Shown one piece after another: positions 51,517-62,037 of a stretch of 64,000 bases of DNA; position 1 is the first letter of the stretch; the number at the start of each line of letters is the position of its first letter. Both the position numbers and the translations under genes were made by a program. The stretch comes from Balneolaceae bacterium (GTDB lineage Bacteria > Bacteroidota > Rhodothermia > Balneolales > Balneolaceae): assembly GCA_017795005.1 (NCBI GenBank), contig CP051242.1:3216119-3280118 (forward strand), given 5' to 3'. The notes beneath the pieces are model-generated. The model had not been told where the DNA came from. It saw nothing but the letters and a program-made list of their open reading frames with translations, and made no database searches.

Positions 51517-51545
51517 CCAATCCAAAACTCATAGCATTCCGTACT
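51517..51545 (+). promoter_or_regulatory. ECF-type promoter 1, upstream of the sigma gene
   Basis: CCAATCCA (51517-51524), 15 nt, then CGTACT (51540-51545). The same -35-like and -10-like pair at identical spacing occurs at 53056 and 57297. The -10 word CGTA is usual for ECF promoters. It lies 22 bp before the sigma factor ATG, which implies autoregulation. Confidence 0.65.
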
Positions 51546-51567
51546 TAACAACGAACACAATAATTAT

Positions 51568-52182
51568 ATGCTGTTTTTTATTCTTTCCGCCATTGGAAAA
51601 CTCCTGACTCAGAATAATTCCAGAGACAGAGATCTGATGCGACGTATTTCATCTAAAGAACCAGAAGCGCTGGGAGTGTTGTACGATCACTACAACCGCC
51701 TGCTTTTTGGGCTATTGAAGTCTATCCTTAAAAAACATGAAGAGGCAGAAGACCTTCTTCAGGAAGTATTTACTTCTATTTGGGAAAAGGCTGATCAGTT
51801 TGATACCGAAAGAGGAACAGCATACACATGGATTGTATCATTAACCAGAAATAAAGCTATAGACCGTTTGAGATCAAAAGTCTACAAAGAGCAAAAAAAG
51901 CAGTCTACAAGTTTGGATGATGATGAAGTTTTTCATCCTCTTTATTCTAATGAACATAACCCGCTTGAGAATGCTATTCTTTCAGATCGTGCAAAACGTG
52001 TATACAATGCACTTCAGAAACTTTCTGAAAAGCAACGTTCGGTAATTCAGGTAGCTTATTTTGATGGATTAAGTCAATCCGAAATATCAGATGAATATGA
52101 TATTCCGCTTGGTACCGTTAAGACAAGAATGCGGGATGGAATGCTAAAACTAAGAGAGCTTTTAGCTCAGGAGATGACCTAA
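51568..52182 (+). CDS. ECF sigma factor, SigK/RpoE-like
   Basis: A 204-residue extracytoplasmic-function sigma factor. Region 2 reads LYDHYNRLLFGLLKSIL, HEEAEDLLQEVFTSIWEKADQF and TWIVSLTRNKAIDRLRS (read in parts); region 4 reads LSEKQRSVIQVAYFDGLSQSEISDEYDIPLGTVKTRMRDGMLKLRE (read in parts). It overlaps the RskA anti-sigma gene by 1 nt (TAATG). The first ~20 residues are hydrophobic and non-conserved; an internal start cannot be excluded. With its own motif upstream, it probably directs the three-site regulon described here. Confidence 0.93.
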   Translation: MLFFILSAIGKLLTQNNSRDRDLMRRISSKEPEALGVLYDHYNRLLFGLLKSILKKHEEAEDLLQEVFTSIWEKADQFDTERGTAYTWIVSLTRNKAIDRLRSKVYKEQKKQSTSLDDDEVFHPLYSNEHNPLENAILSDRAKRVYNALQKLSEKQRSVIQVAYFDGLSQSEISDEYDIPLGTVKTRMRDGMLKLRELLAQEMT

Positions 52183-52976
52183 TGGCAGATAGTAAAAATG
52201 ACTTCAATTTCGAGGAGCTTTGTGCAGCTTATATACTTGGCTCACTTTCCGAAGAAGAAAAATCTTACTTCGAAGAGTTACTTACCAATGCAAGTTCAGA
52301 GCAAAAGCAACTTTTTGAAGATATGGAAGCAATTGCTGCGGAAATGGCTTTGCTTTATCCTGAAGCAGATCCTTCCCCTTCCATAAAACAACAACTTATT
52401 GAAATGGCGTGGGCTTCTGTTAATAAAAGGAATGGAACTAATATTCTTTATTTAACCCGTTTCAGATTTGCTGTCGCAGCCTCTCTGGTATTTATGATGG
52501 TTTCAATTGGATTACTATTTCAAACTCAGAACCTTAATCAGGATTTATCTGAACAACTGGTACTTGTTAATGAACAACAAAACAGAATTGAAATCCTTGA
52601 GACCGAAGTGGAACAAAAAGAAGAATTACTTACCATTTTAGAAGCGAGAGATGTAGACCTTATTCTAATGGACGGTCTCGAGGTTAATCCTACCGGATAT
52701 GGCAAGGTGGTTTGGGATAAGGATAACGGACAGGCACTACTTCAGGTTGCCAACATCCCAAGAGTTCCAACTGCAAAAGAATATCAGCTTTGGTTTGTAG
52801 TAAATAATCAGCCTATTAGTGCCGGTGTTTTTTCCGTAAATGATCCGAGCCAGGATAACTTCTTTAAGATTTCTGAATTTCAGCAAGGTGGAACAGGTGC
52901 TTTTGCTATTACTCTTGAGCCCGAAGGTGGCTCTCCTCTCCCAACAGGGGATATGTATTTATTAGGAAGCATGTAA
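52182..52976 (+). CDS. RskA-type membrane anti-sigma factor
   Basis: A 264-residue anti-sigma factor. The cytosolic N-terminal domain has EELCAAYILGSLSEEEKSYFEELL but no zinc-binding H-x3-C-x2-C motif, as in RskA. One membrane helix at ~94-114 (FRFAVAASLVFMMVSIGLLFQ, read in parts) is followed by a coiled segment and the RskA C-terminal domain (~165-264: VVWDKDNGQALLQVANIP, YQLWFVVNNQPISAGVF). It holds the sigma factor at the membrane until a periplasmic signal triggers release. Confidence 0.93.
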   Translation: MADSKNDFNFEELCAAYILGSLSEEEKSYFEELLTNASSEQKQLFEDMEAIAAEMALLYPEADPSPSIKQQLIEMAWASVNKRNGTNILYLTRFRFAVAASLVFMMVSIGLLFQTQNLNQDLSEQLVLVNEQQNRIEILETEVEQKEELLTILEARDVDLILMDGLEVNPTGYGKVVWDKDNGQALLQVANIPRVPTAKEYQLWFVVNNQPISAGVFSVNDPSQDNFFKISEFQQGGTGAFAITLEPEGGSPLPTGDMYLLGSM

Positions 52977-53010
52977 CCTTTTAATTTTATTTAATATCTA
53001 ATTATTAGAA

Positions 53011-53047
53011 AAGCTCTGTCTTATATGGATTTGGGCTTTTTTTTATT
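53011..53047 (+). terminator. Terminator of the sigma/anti-sigma operon
   Basis: AAAAGCTC (53011-53018) pairs with GGGCTTTT (53035-53042; one G-U) followed by T residues. It separates the sigma pair from the CHRD gene, which therefore needs its own promoter (at 53056). Confidence 0.75.
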
Positions 53048-53055
53048 ACAATATT

Positions 53056-53084
53056 CCAATCCGTTCATTTAGAGAGGTCGTATT
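53056..53084 (+). promoter_or_regulatory. ECF-type promoter 2, upstream of the CHRD gene
   Basis: CCAATCCG (53056-53063), exactly 15 nt, CGTATT (53079-53084), 50 bp before the CHRD start. It shares words and spacing with promoter 1 and promoter 3. Extended match TATTCCAATCCG with promoter 3's TATTTCCAATCCG. Confidence 0.7.
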
Positions 53085-53134
53085 CTATTATGAAATACCC
53101 AAAAGGGAAAATTATCAATTAAACGGAGAAGTGT

Positions 53135-56100
53135 ATGGAATCATTAAAACTGATACGATCGTTTATACTTTCATTATGTGTCATGCTCTTGGTATTTACT
53201 CAACAAAGCTTTTCACAAACAACTTTTAAAGCATTCTTAAGTGGGAGTAATGAAACTCCATCAATAACCAGCCCTGCTTCAGGAACCATAACCGCAACTC
53301 TTACAGGAACTGAATTGGTTGTTGAAGGAGATTTTGAAGGATTAGTTGGTGACTATTCAGGCTCTCATATTCACCTTGGAATGGCTGGTGAAGCCGGCGG
53401 AGTTCTTTTTTCATTAACCGCTGTTACTAATGTGGACAATAAAGGCGGTACCTATGTAGGCGCCAGTAATACTTTCAATTTAAGTGCAGGACAGGTAGAT
53501 ACTCTTGAAGCCAGGGGATTATACATTAATATTCACACTTCTGAATATGGAGGAGGTGAGCTCCGGGCTCAATTGCAACCTGAAATGGATGCCTATTTCC
53601 GAACTAATTTATCCGGAGCTTTTGAAGTACTTCCGGCAAAGTCTAATGCGACCGGATCTATTGTTATGGAACTTGACGCCGATACATTATACGTATCCGG
53701 CTCTTTCAATAGTCTGACCGGAGATTATTCTGCATCTCACCTTCATATTGCTCCAATCGGAGAAGGTGGTGGAGTTGCTTTCACATTAACTCCAACATTA
53801 GCTGTTGATAATCGGTCAGGCACTTATTTTGCAGCTAACAACAAATTCACTCTTACTGCACAACAGAAACAGGATTTGTGGGACCGCAAATTTTATATGA
53901 ATATACACTCTTCGACTTATGGAGGCGGCGAACTACGGGGACAGATTACTCCTCCCCTAACTGCTTCCTTTTATGCTAAACTTTCAGGAACCGGAGAAAA
54001 ACCTTCCATTAATTCATCCGGAGCCGGAGCAGTACTTATTGAATTATCTGGTGATTCTCTTTTTGTATCCGGGTCCTTTCAGGCATTAGGGTCTGAATTT
54101 ACAGGTGCTCATATCCATACCGGACATGCCGGAGAATCAGGCGGAGTCGCCGTTGCGCTAACTTCTACTTTAGAGCCTGGTAATATGGCGGGTTACTTTT
54201 CTGCTACTGATAATCGGTTTGAACTTACATCACAACAAAAAATAGATTTATTAGCCAGAAAAATGTACATCAATGTACATTCTCAAAATAATACATCCGG
54301 TGAAATAAGAGGCCAGATTTTAGGTGATGCCTCTGCTTATTTCCATACTCATTTACTTGGTGTTCATGAGATACAACCTGTAAATGTACAAGGTATGGGA
54401 AGCACAATTGTTGAGCTTTCCGGCTCAAGAGCAATTGTATCCGGTGGATTTGAATCCTTGTTCGGTGATTTTACGGGCTCGCATATCCATACTGGAAAAG
54501 TTGATGCAAATGGTAGCGTAGCTATTGCTTTAAGTCCTACCACAAATACTGTAAATGGTGTAACAGAAGGTGAATTTGATGTATCTACTAATACATTCAC
54601 TTTAACATCAGCACAGATTGACTCACTTTTTAACGAAAGTTTATATGTGAATGTACATTCATCTAATACTCCTTCCGGGGAAATCCGAGGACAGTTATTG
54701 TTTGATGTCGCTAATCAATATCCTGAACCTCCTTTCTTCACCTCTCCCGGAAATGGCGATCTTGTAGAATTATCAACAACTGCGAGCACTGCACTTGATA
54801 TAACCTGGGGTCATGATGGAATAGATTTGGATGGAAATAAAGTAGTATACATCTGGCAATTAGCCACAGATGAAAACTTCAACAACATTGTAATTAATGC
54901 AAATGTAGGAACTGAAAAGATGTTCTCTACAACACATGGTGACTTCAATATGCTTCTTTCCGATATCGGAGTAGCTTCAGGTGGAGAAACACTACTATAT
55001 CATCGGGTTTATGCCTCTGATGGAAGTGATCTTGCAGTAAGTGACACCCTCGTTATTACAGCACGAAGACCAAATTTTGGTTCAGAAATGTTTGAGATTC
55101 TTTTAAGTGGAAGCAATGAAGTACCTCCAATTACTTCTCCGGCTTATGGAAAAGTATCCGCTTCCTTTAATGGAACACACTTAGTATTAGATGGAGAATT
55201 CGAAGGTTTAACCGGAGAATTTACAGGCGCTCATTTGCACTTTGGGCAGTCAGGACAGTCTGGCGGTGTTGAAATTGCTGTTTCTCCAAATATTAACGTA
55301 GATATGAAAAGCGGAACCTTTGCCGATTTTGATACCAGTTATGCTCTAACCCCGGATCAAGTTTCAAAGCTTCATTCACGGGCATTATACTTGAATATTC
55401 ATTCAAGTGCTTATCCAAGTGGAGAACTTAGAGGACAGGTTGTCCCTAAATCAGATTATTACTTCCGTACAAATTTATCAGGTGCATTCCAGACTCCGGC
55501 GTTTAATTCTATGGGTTCAGGTGCCGCTACGCTTGAACTAGTTGGAGATACTCTACGGGTTTCAGGATCCTTTGCTAACCTTTCCGATGATTATATTGCT
55601 TCTCATATTCATATTGCTCCGGTTGGCAGTTCAGGTCCGGTTTCAATTACTTTAAACCCAACTATTGAAGTTGATAACCGTTCCGGAGTATTCATTGCCG
55701 ATCAAAATCAGTTTGTTCTTAACGCCGACCAAAAAGCAGCTCTTTGGAATAGAGAGTTTTATATAAACATTCACGTTTCAGAACTGGCACTAGCAGAACT
55801 AAGAGGTAACATAACTCCTCCTGTAACAGCAGCATTTTATTCGAGCCTCTCAGGGACTGCTGAAAATGAATCCGTACAAAGTGATGGAAACGGAGCTTTG
55901 GTATTAGAATTAGTGGGAGATTCATTAATCGTTACTGGATCATTCGATAACCTGTTTTCATTATTCTCAGGATCCCATATTCATACTGGGCATGCCGGAG
56001 AAAATGGACCCGTGGCTTTTGTACTTTCAGATCTAATCATGCGTCTGGATCAAAAAGCAGGTCAGTTTATAACCGGAAATAAATTTGGACTTAATGCAGA

Positions 56101-57229
56101 TCAAAAAGAAGCTCTCTTTAATCGCGGAATGTATATCAATGTTCATTCAGATTTATTCTCTGGAGGAGAAATCCGTGGCCAGATTCTGGGTGACGCTACC
56201 GCTTATTTCAAAACAAAGTTAAATGGTAATCATGAAAATGATCCTGTACTTGACGCAGAAGGTTTCGGGGCTGCCAACATAGAGTTCGCCGGAGATCGTA
56301 TTATCGTTTCGGGTGGATTTGATCAATTATCTTCGGCTTTCTCAGGGGCACATATTCATGCCGGACCTGTGGATAACAATGGAGGTGTGGAAATCGCACT
56401 AAGTCCTACGGTTACCGATGATACTACCGGTGTATTCGATCCTACAATGAATACCTATACAGTAACTACCAATCAGGTAACAACTCTATTTTCAGAAGGT
56501 ACTTATCTAAATGTACACTCTTCTGCTAATCCGGGAGGAGAGTTGCGCGGACAGTTGCTTTTTGGTGATAATTTCTTTCCATCTGCTGTTGAAATTACAA
56601 CACCCACAGACGGAGCTGAACTAACGGTGTCAGGAAGTGCTTCAACCACATTTACAGCTGAATGGTCGAAGGCAAATGATCCAAATGGAAATGAACTCCG
56701 TTATGTATGGGCTGTCTCATCAGATTCCGAGTTTGATGAAATTCTCTACATGGTAAATGTTGGATCAGATACTAACGCTACCTTAACTTTTGATGCATTG
56801 GATGGATTATTAGCAGACCTGAATATTGGACTAAATGCTTCCACTACCTTATATCATTCTGTTATGGTAACAGATGGAAGCAATGAAAGCTTTAGTGAGC
56901 CAAAATCTGTGAACCTTACCCGTGGAATGCTTATTTCCAATGAGGAAGAACCGGGTATTGAACCTTTGGTTTTTGGATTGGACCAGAATTATCCAAATCC
57001 ATTCAATCCCTCAACTACAATTAGCTTTACACTTTCTGAAACGGGAAATGCTACTTTGAAAGTATACAATATGCTCGGACAGGAAGTAGCAACACTTGCT
57101 AACGAACGATTAAATTCTGGAAGTCACACTTTCAACTTTGATGCCAGCGCCCTTGCTTCAGGAATGTATATTTACCGTTTACAAGCGCAGAATCAAACCA
57201 TCACAAAACGTATGATGCTTATTAAATAA
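53135..57229 (+). CDS. Giant type IX-secreted protein with eight CHRD domains
   Basis: A 1364-residue secreted protein: signal peptide (~1-28, ending QSFSQ), then (four CHRD domains + one Fn3-like domain) twice, then a T9SS C-terminal sorting domain (1282-1364, LDQNYPNPFNPSTTISF ... ALASGMYIYRL). CHRD starts are near 30, 152, 276, 400, 652, 774, 898 and 1022; the second half begins 622 residues after the first, showing a long internal duplication. Each CHRD has the words LSGxxE, GxHIHxGxxGExG and NVHSxxxxxGExRGQ. CHRD domains occur in chordin and in bacterial surface proteins of unknown function. It is driven by its own ECF-type promoter next to the sigma operon. Confidence 0.9.
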   Translation: MESLKLIRSFILSLCVMLLVFTQQSFSQTTFKAFLSGSNETPSITSPASGTITATLTGTELVVEGDFEGLVGDYSGSHIHLGMAGEAGGVLFSLTAVTNVDNKGGTYVGASNTFNLSAGQVDTLEARGLYINIHTSEYGGGELRAQLQPEMDAYFRTNLSGAFEVLPAKSNATGSIVMELDADTLYVSGSFNSLTGDYSASHLHIAPIGEGGGVAFTLTPTLAVDNRSGTYFAANNKFTLTAQQKQDLWDRKFYMNIHSSTYGGGELRGQITPPLTASFYAKLSGTGEKPSINSSGAGAVLIELSGDSLFVSGSFQALGSEFTGAHIHTGHAGESGGVAVALTSTLEPGNMAGYFSATDNRFELTSQQKIDLLARKMYINVHSQNNTSGEIRGQILGDASAYFHTHLLGVHEIQPVNVQGMGSTIVELSGSRAIVSGGFESLFGDFTGSHIHTGKVDANGSVAIALSPTTNTVNGVTEGEFDVSTNTFTLTSAQIDSLFNESLYVNVHSSNTPSGEIRGQLLFDVANQYPEPPFFTSPGNGDLVELSTTASTALDITWGHDGIDLDGNKVVYIWQLATDENFNNIVINANVGTEKMFSTTHGDFNMLLSDIGVASGGETLLYHRVYASDGSDLAVSDTLVITARRPNFGSEMFEILLSGSNEVPPITSPAYGKVSASFNGTHLVLDGEFEGLTGEFTGAHLHFGQSGQSGGVEIAVSPNINVDMKSGTFADFDTSYALTPDQVSKLHSRALYLNIHSSAYPSGELRGQVVPKSDYYFRTNLSGAFQTPAFNSMGSGAATLELVGDTLRVSGSFANLSDDYIASHIHIAPVGSSGPVSITLNPTIEVDNRSGVFIADQNQFVLNADQKAALWNREFYINIHVSELALAELRGNITPPVTAAFYSSLSGTAENESVQSDGNGALVLELVGDSLIVTGSFDNLFSLFSGSHIHTGHAGENGPVAFVLSDLIMRLDQKAGQFITGNKFGLNADQKEALFNRGMYINVHSDLFSGGEIRGQILGDATAYFKTKLNGNHENDPVLDAEGFGAANIEFAGDRIIVSGGFDQLSSAFSGAHIHAGPVDNNGGVEIALSPTVTDDTTGVFDPTMNTYTVTTNQVTTLFSEGTYLNVHSSANPGGELRGQLLFGDNFFPSAVEITTPTDGAELTVSGSASTTFTAEWSKANDPNGNELRYVWAVSSDSEFDEILYMVNVGSDTNATLTFDALDGLLADLNIGLNASTTLYHSVMVTDGSNESFSEPKSVNLTRGMLISNEEEPGIEPLVFGLDQNYPNPFNPSTTISFTLSETGNATLKVYNMLGQEVATLANERLNSGSHTFNFDASALASGMYIYRLQAQNQTITKRMMLIK

Positions 57230-57254
57230 TACTTTCAAGAAAACAATACGTATG

Positions 57255-57282
57255 GGCCGTTCTGAACAGAACGGCCTTTTTT
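57255..57282 (+). terminator. Strong terminator of the CHRD gene
   Basis: GGCCGTTCTG pairs with CAGAACGGCC (57255-57276), followed by six T. It ends 26-53 nt after the CHRD stop. Confidence 0.9.
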
Positions 57283-57296
57283 ATTACCGATTATTT

Positions 57297-57325
57297 CCAA
57301 TCCGATGTTTGCTCATTTACGTATA
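57297..57325 (+). promoter_or_regulatory. ECF-type promoter 3, orphan (predicted sRNA promoter)
   Basis: CCAATCCG (57297-57304), exactly 15 nt, CGTATA (57320-57325). It matches the two promoters of the sigma factor and CHRD genes but is followed by no protein gene on the plus strand before the terminator at 57374-57408. Confidence 0.65.
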
Positions 57326-57331
57326 TAAGTA

Positions 57332-57408
57332 TGAACTAATTGATTGTTTAACCAGAACTTCATTGATAGAGACAAAGGGCTGTTCCAGAGATGGACAGCT
57401 CTTTTTTT
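57332..57408 (+). ncRNA. Predicted ECF-sigma-dependent small RNA
   Basis: A transcript from promoter 3 would start about 7 nt after CGTATA and end at the stem AGGGCTGTTC/GGACAGCTCT (57376-57401, two G-U pairs) plus the U-run to 57408, giving about 75 nt. It holds no meaningful ORF (only ATG-AAC-TAA). The 5' half is single-stranded and AT-rich, the pattern of an antisense-acting sRNA. Start and function are predictions. Confidence 0.5.
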
Positions 57409-57414
57409 ATGAAT

Positions 57415-59649: not shown

Positions 59650-59685
59650 AATTTCTATTACTCAGCCAAACTGTTGGAGTTTATT

Positions 59686-62037
59686 ATGATTAAACGTCTA
59701 TGTTCCCTTTTCACACTATTATTTGTGGTGTTTTCTTATAACTCAGTTATCGCACAGGATATGCCCCTCGTCTATGATGTTGAGCATACTGGAGCTGATT
59801 GTCCGGAGCCTCCCTTACTTTCATTTAATCAGTTATCTGATATAAATGCCCTTCCTAACCCTTTTGAGTGGTCTGATGGAAGAAGCGAAATTTCTTATTT
59901 CTCAGATTGGAGATGTAGAAGAGCTGAAATCGCTAAAGAAATCCAGCACTATGAAATTGGCGAAAAACCTGCCCGTCCGGATACGATTGAAGCAAGTTTT
60001 GAAGATGGTATGCTAACTGTAGACGTTACTGTAAAAGGAAAAACTCTTACGCTTACTTCAAATATTAATCTACCTGAAGGTGAGGGTCCACATCCGGTAG
60101 TAATAGGTATGGGTGGAACCAGTCTCCCTGGTGATATCTTCACAAGTCGTAATATCGCTCAAATGAATTTTAATTTTGGACAGGTTACTGCACATACACA
60201 AACCCGCGGGAATGAACCTATTAACGAGATATATCCAGAATTAGAATATATTGGGTCTTATAGCGCCTGGCCGTGGGGAGTTAGCAGGCTTATTGATGGG
60301 CTGGAATTAGTTAAAGATGAGGCTAATATTGATTTAGAACACATCGCAGTAAGTGGATGCTCGTTTGCGGGGAAGATGGCTATTTTTGCAGGTGCTTTTG
60401 ATGAGAGAATTGCACTTACATTTGGAATTGAATCGGGTGGCGGGGGATATACTACCTGGCGTTATTCTGAAGTGTTAGATCGAATTGAAAGTGTGGAAAC
60501 TCTTGCAAGAACAAATTACTCATGGTTCATTCAGGATATGCGACAGTTTTCCGGTGAGGTGCAAAAACTTCCAATGGATCATCACGAATTAATGGCAATG
60601 GTTGCACCCCGAGCACTTTTTGTAACCGGCAACCCTGGTTTTGTATGGCTTGCAGATGAATCAGGATACGTTGGCAGTAAAGCGACAGAAAAGGTATATG
60701 ACGCTTTAGGTATCTCAGATCGTTTTACTTACAGTCAGGTTGGCGGTCATAATCACTGTGCTATTCCAGCTTCTCAACGCCCTGATATTGAAGCGTATGT
60801 AGATAAATTTCTTTTGGGCATAGAAACAGAAACAAATTTATCAACAAGCCCATACACAACACCTCTGGGACCATGGATACCATGGGAAACACCTGAATTA
60901 ACTGTAGGAGAGTCTCTTTTTGAAACAACTTCGTTAGTTTTGCCTGAAAACCAGTCAGCCGGAATTGATACATTCGCCACTTTTTCATGGAATGAATTTG
61001 CTGATTCTGAGAAATACTATTTTCAACTTTCAACAGACGCTACGTTTAAAACTCTTGATGTTGAAGATTCAAGTGCCACAAATGAAATCTTCATAGATAA
61101 TCTGGAAAAGGGCAAGCGATATTACTGGAGGGTTCAAATTAAAGCGAACTCAGGTTCGTTAAGTCCGTGGAGCGCTCCGTTTAATTTTATTACTTCCATA
61201 CAATTACCAGACGTTCCTGAATTAAATCCTGCAACTATTTTCAGAGCTTCAAGACCTAACTTTTATGTATATAGTTGGAATGAAACGGCCAATGCAGATA
61301 GATATAGAGTTGAGATTTCAGAAAGTCCATCTTTTACCAGCCTGGTCGGCTCAGCCAATACTTCGAACACCTCCGCTACTATTGTCGGAACCGAAGAAGG
61401 AAACCGATATTACTGGAGGGTCAATGCTGAAAATATTGCCGGTTCAAGTCCTTGGAGTGAAACTCTAAGCTTCTTTGTTCTTGCACCGCCTGATGATATT
61501 TTAATTGAAGATGCAGGAGCCTCCGGAATCAGAATAAAATGGGATGATAATTCTGATGTAGAAGACGGATACATTATTGAAAGAAAAACAGGGGTAGAGG
61601 GAACGTATGCTGTTGTAGATTCTTTGGATGCCGACATCGAGGAATGGACTGATGCTACAGGTCAAAACGATCACTTTTATAGAGTTAAAGCATATTATGC
61701 TGAAGAAGGATCTGATTATTCAGATGAAGTTTCATTAACTCCGGTTTATACCGAAGATGAAACCGATACACCCGGCAACTATTCTCTAAAACAGAATTAT
61801 CCAAATCCATTTAATCCGGTAACCACCATTTCTTTTGAGTTGGAACAACCAGGATTAACCAAACTCACTGTTTATGATTTGTTAGGACGTGAAATGAAAA
61901 CTCTTGTCAATGAAGTTAGATCAGCCGGGAATCATCAAATACAATTTGATGCGAGTAACTTTGCAAGTGGTATTTATATATACATGTTAGAATCCGGTGA
62001 TTTTAGTCAAACCAGGAAAATGGTTCTAATGAAATAA
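59686..62037 (+). CDS. Type IX-secreted CE15-like glucuronoyl esterase with Fn3-like repeats
   Basis: A 783-codon frame from ATG at 59686, behind a TTGGAG ribosome site; a TTG at 59674 is less likely. Signal peptide, then a CE15-like alpha/beta hydrolase (~25-375) with the nucleophile GCSFAGK (S226), E249 in GIESGGGG and H355 in VGGHNHC. CE15 enzymes cleave ester links between lignin and glucuronoxylan. The usual GCSR has Phe at 227 in place of the oxyanion-hole Arg. Two or three Fn3-like domains follow (~415-700), then a T9SS domain (LKQNYPNPFNPVTT ... ASGIYIYMLE). It is preceded by twin operators and ends at a strong terminator. Confidence 0.82.
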   Translation: MIKRLCSLFTLLFVVFSYNSVIAQDMPLVYDVEHTGADCPEPPLLSFNQLSDINALPNPFEWSDGRSEISYFSDWRCRRAEIAKEIQHYEIGEKPARPDTIEASFEDGMLTVDVTVKGKTLTLTSNINLPEGEGPHPVVIGMGGTSLPGDIFTSRNIAQMNFNFGQVTAHTQTRGNEPINEIYPELEYIGSYSAWPWGVSRLIDGLELVKDEANIDLEHIAVSGCSFAGKMAIFAGAFDERIALTFGIESGGGGYTTWRYSEVLDRIESVETLARTNYSWFIQDMRQFSGEVQKLPMDHHELMAMVAPRALFVTGNPGFVWLADESGYVGSKATEKVYDALGISDRFTYSQVGGHNHCAIPASQRPDIEAYVDKFLLGIETETNLSTSPYTTPLGPWIPWETPELTVGESLFETTSLVLPENQSAGIDTFATFSWNEFADSEKYYFQLSTDATFKTLDVEDSSATNEIFIDNLEKGKRYYWRVQIKANSGSLSPWSAPFNFITSIQLPDVPELNPATIFRASRPNFYVYSWNETANADRYRVEISESPSFTSLVGSANTSNTSATIVGTEEGNRYYWRVNAENIAGSSPWSETLSFFVLAPPDDILIEDAGASGIRIKWDDNSDVEDGYIIERKTGVEGTYAVVDSLDADIEEWTDATGQNDHFYRVKAYYAEEGSDYSDEVSLTPVYTEDETDTPGNYSLKQNYPNPFNPVTTISFELEQPGLTKLTVYDLLGREMKTLVNEVRSAGNHQIQFDASNFASGIYIYMLESGDFSQTRKMVLMK

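Follow-up and report, generated by a model that had tools for sequence, protein, structure and literature searches.

A predicted SigK-like ECF sigma factor regulon with two small RNA families in Balneolaceae

Within a 64,000-nucleotide stretch of the genome of a Balneolaceae bacterium (assembly GCA_017795005.1, contig CP051242.1; hereafter the window), the region beginning at 51517 encodes a SigK-like extracytoplasmic function (ECF) sigma factor, an RskA-type anti-sigma protein and a large secreted protein with CHRD domains. Comparison of this region with its relatives makes it highly probable that the sigma factor heads an autoregulated regulon, in which it would drive its own operon, the CHRD protein gene and two predicted small RNA (sRNA) genes, designated sRNA1 and sRNA2. 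The motif shared by these genes, its place, its conservation and its co-occurrence with the sigma gene, as well as the conservation and structure of both RNAs, can be read directly from the sequences compared (Table 1).

Table 1. Predicted features of the regulon (window coordinates unless a genome and contig are given)
Feature	Position	Strand	Basis
Promoter of sigma/anti-sigma operon (autoregulation)	51517..51543	+	CCAATCC-N16-CGTA; orthologous place in 14/14 loci and in 10/10 genomes whose sigma orthologue is at least 61% identical
ECF sigma factor, SigK-like, 204 aa	51568..52182	+	Sigma70_r2 and Sigma70_r4; solved-structure match SigK 4NQW
RskA-type anti-sigma, one membrane span	52182..52976	+	RskA_C, E 4.5e-21; start overlaps sigma stop
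Promoter of CHRD gene	53056..53082	+	CCAATCC-N16-CGTA; 12/13 orthologues, one mismatch in L017
Secreted protein, eight CHRD domains, type IX sorting tail, 1364 aa	53135..57229	+	CHRD x8, Por_Secre_tail
Terminator-like hairpin closing the CHRD unit	57254..57277	+	Hairpin search
Promoter of sRNA1	57297..57323	+	CCAATCC-N16-CGTA; present at 7/7 sRNA1 copies
sRNA1 gene, predicted, about 80 nt	57330..57411	+	Conserved core, covarying hairpin, model matches, fold z -2.97
sRNA1 conserved core GATAGAGACAAAGG	57365..57378	+	Last bases enter the terminator stem
sRNA1 intrinsic terminator hairpin, 12 pairs and T run	57374..57404	+	51 bases past the end of site 3
sRNA2 gene, predicted	G000:C1:3713536-3713631	-	Motif, hairpins, constant string, terminator

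Three identical sites are conserved at orthologous genes

The window corresponds to C1:3216119-3280118 of genome G000, which consists of one contig of 3,747,071 bases. A first-pass annotation of this DNA had reported three equally spaced copies of a two-part motif, one ahead of the sigma gene, one ahead of the CHRD gene and one orphan. The search showed that, within the window, CCAATCCR-N15-CGTA is confined to 51517, 53056 and 57297, always on the forward strand, and that no copy arises in dinucleotide-shuffled versions of the window (n = 100). Throughout G000, CCAATCC-N16-CGTA is found only at these three sites, so the copies that had been reported are exact and unique in the genome; a wider pattern gave three more matches, with a spacer of 17 bases, and the same pattern read backwards gave two. 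The positions assigned to the first two sites also hold: the sigma gene starts (ATG) 25 bases past the end of site 1, and the CHRD gene 53 bases past the end of site 2.

Genome contigs were scanned with the sigma protein, which yielded 15 loci; 13 of these (L007-L019, 68-91% identity), from records named Balneola, Balneolaceae, Gracilimonas and, in one case, Rhodothermia, were kept, and L020 and L021 (33 and 28% identity) were left out. The order DUF255 (thioredoxin-like), sigma, anti-sigma is found in all 13 relatives' loci, accompanied by a CHRD gene in 12 (not L016), by a DUF4412 gene in 12 (not L017) and, within the listed part of the loci, by mnmA in 10. CAATCY-N16-CGTA matched 33 times on both strands of the window and the 13 loci (305,774 bases), against a chance expectation of 0.87 matches (first-order Markov model, 15 simulations). 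All 33 matches lie ahead of sigma genes (14/14), CHRD genes (12/13) or sRNA1 copies (7/7), and none lies elsewhere; the CHRD site of L017 has CCATCC in place of the CAATCC-type block.

Altogether 43 sites in five classes were collected. Their ten fixed motif positions are alike by construction, and the independent measure is the fraction of orthologous genes that carry a site. Spacer similarity is only 36-46%, a purine follows CAATCY in 43/43 sites although the pattern leaves this position free, and the two bases ahead of CGTA are T in 34/43 and 31/43 sites, respectively. The first-pass annotation had proposed that one ECF sigma factor reads all three window sites, its own promoter included, and had named missing conservation of the motif ahead of orthologous sigma and CHRD genes as evidence to the contrary. 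The motif is conserved ahead of both genes without stray matches in the loci compared, which strongly supports the proposal at the level of sequence, and the three sites are very probably promoters of the sigma factor encoded at 51568.

Shorter forms of the motif were counted genome-wide together with a backwards control, and the results (motif/control) were 8/10 in G000, 14/15 in G001, 11/6 in G014, 8/8 in G028 and 7/8 in G018. Since these counts equal the control, they were rejected as proof of a large regulon, and only sites at orthologous or independently found genes were retained. Four of the eight G000 matches fall inside mechanically called reading frames and the other four precede the sigma gene, the CHRD gene, sRNA1 and sRNA2. 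The equality with the control is also what a repeat arisen by chance, without function, would produce; that explanation was rejected as having a vanishingly small probability, given that the exact copies are confined to this region and that 33/33 matches sit at orthologous places.

The sigma and anti-sigma pair

The window sigma factor contains only the sigma regions 2 and 4 that define ECF factors, Sigma70_r2 and Sigma70_r4 both scoring above their cut-offs, and its best solved-structure match is SigK (4NQW, E 3.7e-25). It scored 152.1 bits with the NCBIfam SigK model NF007228, below the cut-off of 226, and 179.8 bits with the best NCBIfam subfamily, NF009172, below the cut-off of 222. Among the 14 sigma orthologues, 12 (the window's included) lack cysteine, and L018 and L019 have one, at residue 90. 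The anti-sigma protein has a hydrophobic stretch near residue 96, and a span is present in 14/14 orthologues; a zinc motif was looked for in the window protein and not found. Its N-terminus, FEELCAAYILGSL...EEEKSYFEELL, resembles, by eye only, the AS19-1 helix signature as given in the available part of PMC7406223. According to the part of PMC7509140 consulted, 94% of ECF18 members and 56% of ECF19 members carry a cysteine pair at 133/183. The sigma/anti-sigma pair is named SigK-like and is assigned neither to SigK nor to ECF19.

A second sample comprised 58 genomes of relatives, G000 being included in the numbering. A sigma orthologue of at least 61% identity was found in 10 of the 58, the next best match being 51%; as seven of the ten (G001, G011, G014, G018, G019, G026 and G028) share contigs with the locus set, the two samples are not independent. 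In all ten genomes the site lies 46-50 bases ahead of the sigma start (site start to ATG). A two-part transcription-factor operator without promoter function would leave the same CAATCY-N16-CGTA pattern, and a spaced operator and a promoter are inseparable by sequence alone. We nevertheless regard an operator as very improbable, because of this constant position ahead of ten sigma genes, the fact that the nearest regulator is itself a sigma factor, and the fixed 16-base spacing and CGT-type second block, which suit ECF promoters; such promoters are characterized by fixed spacing and a CGT-type second block.

Among ten more distant homologues (43-51% identity), the site precedes the sigma gene in three (G012, G021 and G049), lies elsewhere in the locus in two (after the anti-sigma gene in G005, divergent in G030) and is absent in five; two homologues of 39-44% identity with an internal stop have no site. 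These strict sites at five of ten loci imply that the specificity is common to a wider sigma family. They are also compatible with real promoters whose main reader is another ECF sigma factor, or several of overlapping specificity, so that the adjacent sigma gene would be just a further target. The presence in G000 of 14 sigma-like matches to the window sigma, and the retention of sRNA2 by a genus (g5) without a close sigma orthologue, point the same way. Against this, the motif stands ahead of the closest orthologues in ten cases out of ten, its occurrence at DUF7282 and multi-CHRD genes coincides with the presence of these orthologues (see below), and the promoter-like sequence in g5 is a different one; reading chiefly by another sigma factor is thus improbable, and the adjacent SigK-like factor remains the preferred reader.

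The best sigma matches in G015 (L042, 44%) and G002 (L043, 39%) contain one stop codon each and are possibly decayed genes. G002, which belongs to the window's genus, combines this interrupted sigma gene with 24.4 bits for the sRNA1 model R1, no match to the sRNA2 model R2 at E<=0.1 and no DUF7282 gene. Next to the distant sigma homologues of G005 (L033) and G030 (L035), the motif precedes other lipoprotein-like genes, and the regulon thus seems to swap secreted targets.

The third site precedes a predicted conserved small RNA gene

The third site, regarded as an orphan in the first-pass annotation, is, on the evidence of sequence conservation, the promoter of a predicted conserved sRNA gene, sRNA1, and is an orphan only in having no protein gene: no reading frame of at least 60 amino acids follows it in the stretch examined. 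The sRNA1 start was placed about 7 bases past CGTA by analogy, and its end at the T run. Its fold is more stable than that of shuffled sequences, with only 1/200 as good.

The same unit, consisting of the motif, a TAGAGAYAA core, a hairpin and a T run, lies 3′ of the CHRD gene in the window, L007 and L008. In L009, L010, L014 and L015 (Balneola) it lies between the anti-sigma and CHRD genes, and there the CHRD gene retains its own, second promoter. The occurrence of sRNA1 on either side of the CHRD gene argues against its being a CHRD leader or a 3′ remnant. In the alignment of the seven hairpins (row L008 offset by one base), pairing is preserved in 96.1% of pair cells and both sides differ in 7 cells, values that were each reached in 0/500 shuffles.

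A covariance model (R1) gave the seven copies 54.7-75.5 bits and the other seven loci at most 28.8 bits; the latter match, in L017, was rejected as sRNA1, there being no motif in front of it. When the 58 genomes were searched under strict filters, G000, G001, G014 and G028 reached at least 54.7 bits and the next match 31.6 bits. At E<=1, R1 matches occur in 39/58 genomes, and most of those scoring less than about 32 bits have the appearance of ordinary terminators. No shared reading frame was found among the seven sRNA1 copies or among three sRNA2 copies. A search of eight loci against Rfam gave nothing at the gathering score, and the window stretch gave only chance-level sub-threshold matches. 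On a midpoint-rooted, partly weak tree of the sigma and anti-sigma proteins, the distribution of sRNA1 needs two changes, which may represent one gain with losses or two gains.

A distant fourth site precedes the predicted sRNA2

The first-pass annotation had described the regulon as local. This description proved too narrow, as a fourth promoter-like site in G000 precedes a structured RNA and relatives hold further distant targets. The fourth site (C1:3713628-3713653, reverse strand; L089) lies 0.43 Mb from the window sites, has no protein gene behind it, and is followed by the predicted sRNA2 gene, which has counterparts with the motif in G001 (L097) and G014 (L106). sRNA2 is made up of two hairpins, the first with paired changes and the second constant, together with the string CCGAATAACTCA and a terminator. 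The fold z-scores of the three copies are -5.1, -5.3 and -6.0, and 4/7 pairs of helix 1 are changed on both sides (16/500 shuffles as high). Seven genomes keep CCGAATAACTC in sRNA2, and in all seven it adjoins homologues of pcuAC and sco1 (Pfam PCuAC and SCO1-SenC); a DUF411 gene lies on its other side in G000. No motif was found behind DUF411 in G008, G011, G026 or G023.

The model R2 gave 99-111 bits for sRNA2 of G000, G001 and G014. The match in G019 (32.2 bits) was accepted for its string and for the CAATCC-N16-CGTA in front of it, not for its score. The sigma-type promoter accordingly precedes sRNA2 in 4/7 genomes, and the other three have a different sequence; in G006, G024 and G033 (L133-L135), sRNA2 stands behind a conserved GGGAACC...CG, which resembles another ECF-type promoter. 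R2 matches at E<=0.1 occur in 27/58 genomes, and those in G057 (40.7 bits), G020 (38.9 bits) and G023 (31.7 bits) were rejected, the constant string being absent from the stretch examined. In Balneola G018 and G028 (L121 and L124), the same neighbours and the motif are accompanied by another RNA of two hairpins, with fold z-scores of -4.0 and -3.5. R2 gives 28.0 bits in G018, and this RNA was not counted as sRNA2; it may represent a third family or an sRNA2 that has diverged.

Predicted protein targets of the regulon

CHRD matches are present in 37/58 genomes. Of 30 CHRD loci examined, eight have the strict motif, all of them in genomes with the sigma orthologue. The other 22, comprising 21 genomes without an orthologue and a second CHRD gene of G000, have no motif in the scanned span, although the frame begins outside the stretch in three of these and its start is unclear in four. 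The second G000 gene is a 1743-aa frame (L194, C1:3110724-3111164), with no motif in the scanned span. G008 has the sigma and DUF7282 genes and no CHRD match. In the CHRD leaders (53083-53134 in the window; also L008, L018 and L019) a CCCAA...TTGGG-type inverted repeat can be seen by eye and perhaps forms a 5′ hairpin. In L007 (10562-11683), a 373-aa frame without a window homologue separates the anti-sigma and CHRD genes, and the motif remains with CHRD.

In G001 and G014 a lipoprotein carrying DUF7282 repeats was reached through the motif. Searching the 58 genomes with a profile gave DUF7282 in six, each of which belongs to the ten that have the sigma orthologue; hand arithmetic gives a probability of 210/40,475,358 (about 5e-6) for this co-occurrence, a figure that assumes independent genomes, which these are not, and that uses a 61% line set after the list had been seen. 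CAATCT-N16-CGTA lies 66-75 bases ahead of the DUF7282 start (site start to ATG) in 6/6 genomes, L145 having been judged by eye; two of the six (G001 and G014) were found through the motif and four independently. G000 has no DUF7282 gene. In G018 and G028 the genes behind the motif encode DUF4331 proteins (L125 and L129), the only DUF4331 genes considered.

Several further candidates were downgraded. The DUF4402-like gene of L107/L110 has a conserved spacer as well and lacks the purine after CAATCY, which is also missing at the plastocyanin-like L127/L128 and the histidine kinase L119/L122. The response-regulator-like L104/L114 has the purine, and its two copies are 29% alike. L091, L096, L101 and L126 are single-genome matches.

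Target searches and the role of the RNAs

The complement of the sRNA1 core was searched for in four genomes and gave 18 matches, three of which are the sRNA gene itself. On the sense strand, no match close to a start recurred between genomes; the single position in common (L204, L206) is on the opposite strand, where an ABC-type gene starts. Local duplex energies with neighbouring genes, compared with letter shuffles (100 each), gave isolated z-scores of -2.6 to -3.4 for DUF4412 in the window, the sigma gene in L007 and mnmA in L010 and L015, which are inconsistent across loci.

These searches, which gave no target, together with the commonness of terminator hairpins and the terminator-like appearance of most model matches below about 32 bits, would fit RNAs that are not regulators, that is, short by-products, terminator relics or carriers of tiny proteins. 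The unpaired core of sRNA1 is conserved, however, and a promoter is present at 7/7 copies; sRNA1 changes side relative to CHRD, its copies share no reading frame, and sRNA2 keeps its constant sequence in seven genomes. A non-regulatory nature of both RNAs is therefore unlikely, and a regulatory role is preferred.

The proposed circuit

In the proposed circuit, an envelope signal would remove the membrane anti-sigma protein, as suggested by the protein family, and the freed sigma factor would guide RNA polymerase to CAATCYR-N13-TTCGTA promoters. It would then transcribe its own operon, the gene for the secreted CHRD protein and sRNA1, plus sRNA2 beside pcuAC/sco1; relatives would add the DUF7282 lipoprotein, and Balneola the DUF4331 protein. 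Both RNAs would most likely act by base pairing, allowing a sigma factor that can only activate to lower the levels of other mRNAs, as the sigma-E sRNAs of enterobacteria do. We infer the recognition of the sites by the sigma factor, the production of the RNAs, their mode of action and the signal from the sequence patterns described above.

Several observations weigh against this circuit. Genome-wide, the short motif is not above its backwards control (48 versus 47 in the five genomes summed). sRNA1 is absent from 7/14 loci with the sigma gene, and two measures of its covariation are unremarkable, namely the pairs changed on both sides (4; 48/500 shuffles) and the pair types (8; 361/500 shuffles). 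The covariation of sRNA2 depends on three sequences. In genus g5, sRNA2 (three genomes, 46-49 bits) occurs without a close sigma orthologue, the best sigma match being just 1e-17 to 6e-19, and behind another promoter-like sequence. Finally, no consistent sRNA target emerged from the core-complement search and local duplex energies, no genome-wide prediction having been made.

A bolder version of the circuit is suggested by the finding that 2/4 promoter-like sites in G000 precede RNAs, not proteins. As half of the sigma promoters would make RNA, the main output may be post-transcriptional. That one genus has kept sRNA2 behind another ECF-like promoter would make the RNA, rather than the sigma factor, the lasting regulatory unit. 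sRNA2, with pcuAC and sco1 as its neighbours, would couple envelope stress to copper delivery or cytochrome oxidase assembly, and sRNA1 would be a module that switched CHRD side together with its promoter. We put this version forward tentatively, as a possibility that is rather doubtful.

Relation to known systems

ECF-dependent sRNAs are already a known principle in Proteobacteria, and the regulon described here is a SigK-like variant of it that adds two new RNA families. MicA, RybB and MicL are sigma-E-dependent sRNAs of enterobacteria. As in that system, the ECF regulon described here includes short RNAs of trans-acting type with intrinsic terminators, here predicted; unlike MicA, RybB and MicL, they show no sequence relation to these (no Rfam match) and belong with a different sigma/anti-sigma type.

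As far as the available parts of PMC7509140 and PMC7406223 describe it, the SigK/RskA system of Mycobacterium tuberculosis (ECF18/ECF19) shares with the window an ECF sigma factor adjoining an RskA-type membrane anti-sigma protein, secreted-protein targets (mpt70/mpt83 for SigK) and autoregulation; those parts mention no sRNA. It differs in that SigK has two cysteines and the window sigma none, that the latter is below the NCBIfam SigK cut-off, and that the targets are others. In the part of PMC5036791 consulted, Pos19 of Rhodobacter sphaeroides, likewise an RNA within an ECF sigma regulon, is an RpoE-dependent RNA of 219 nt called a small coding RNA, whereas the RNAs here are of about 65-90 nt and have no shared reading frame. 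For Flavobacterium psychrophilum, a member of the related Bacteroidota, the available part of PMC9723704 gives a conserved sRNA, Rfp18, and a computed ECF-type promoter motif, SM6, and draws no tie between Rfp18 and an ECF sigma factor; Rfp18 is also a different RNA.

A limited literature search covering Bacteroidetes, Balneola/Balneolota, Bacteroides and Flavobacterium found no sigma-controlled sRNA circuit, nor were reports found that join CHRD or DUF4331 with a sigma factor, or anything related on SigK and CCATCC. The regulon thus offers a concrete and testable sigma-plus-sRNA circuit for a little-studied bacterial group, combining one predicted promoter type without background in the loci examined, one sigma/anti-sigma pair and two new RNA families, and it links the uncharacterised secreted domains CHRD, DUF7282 and DUF4331 to one regulon.

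Further downstream in the window, 59674-62037 encodes a secreted protein that combines a GCE_fung (glucuronyl esterase) domain with fn3 and carries a type IX sorting tail.

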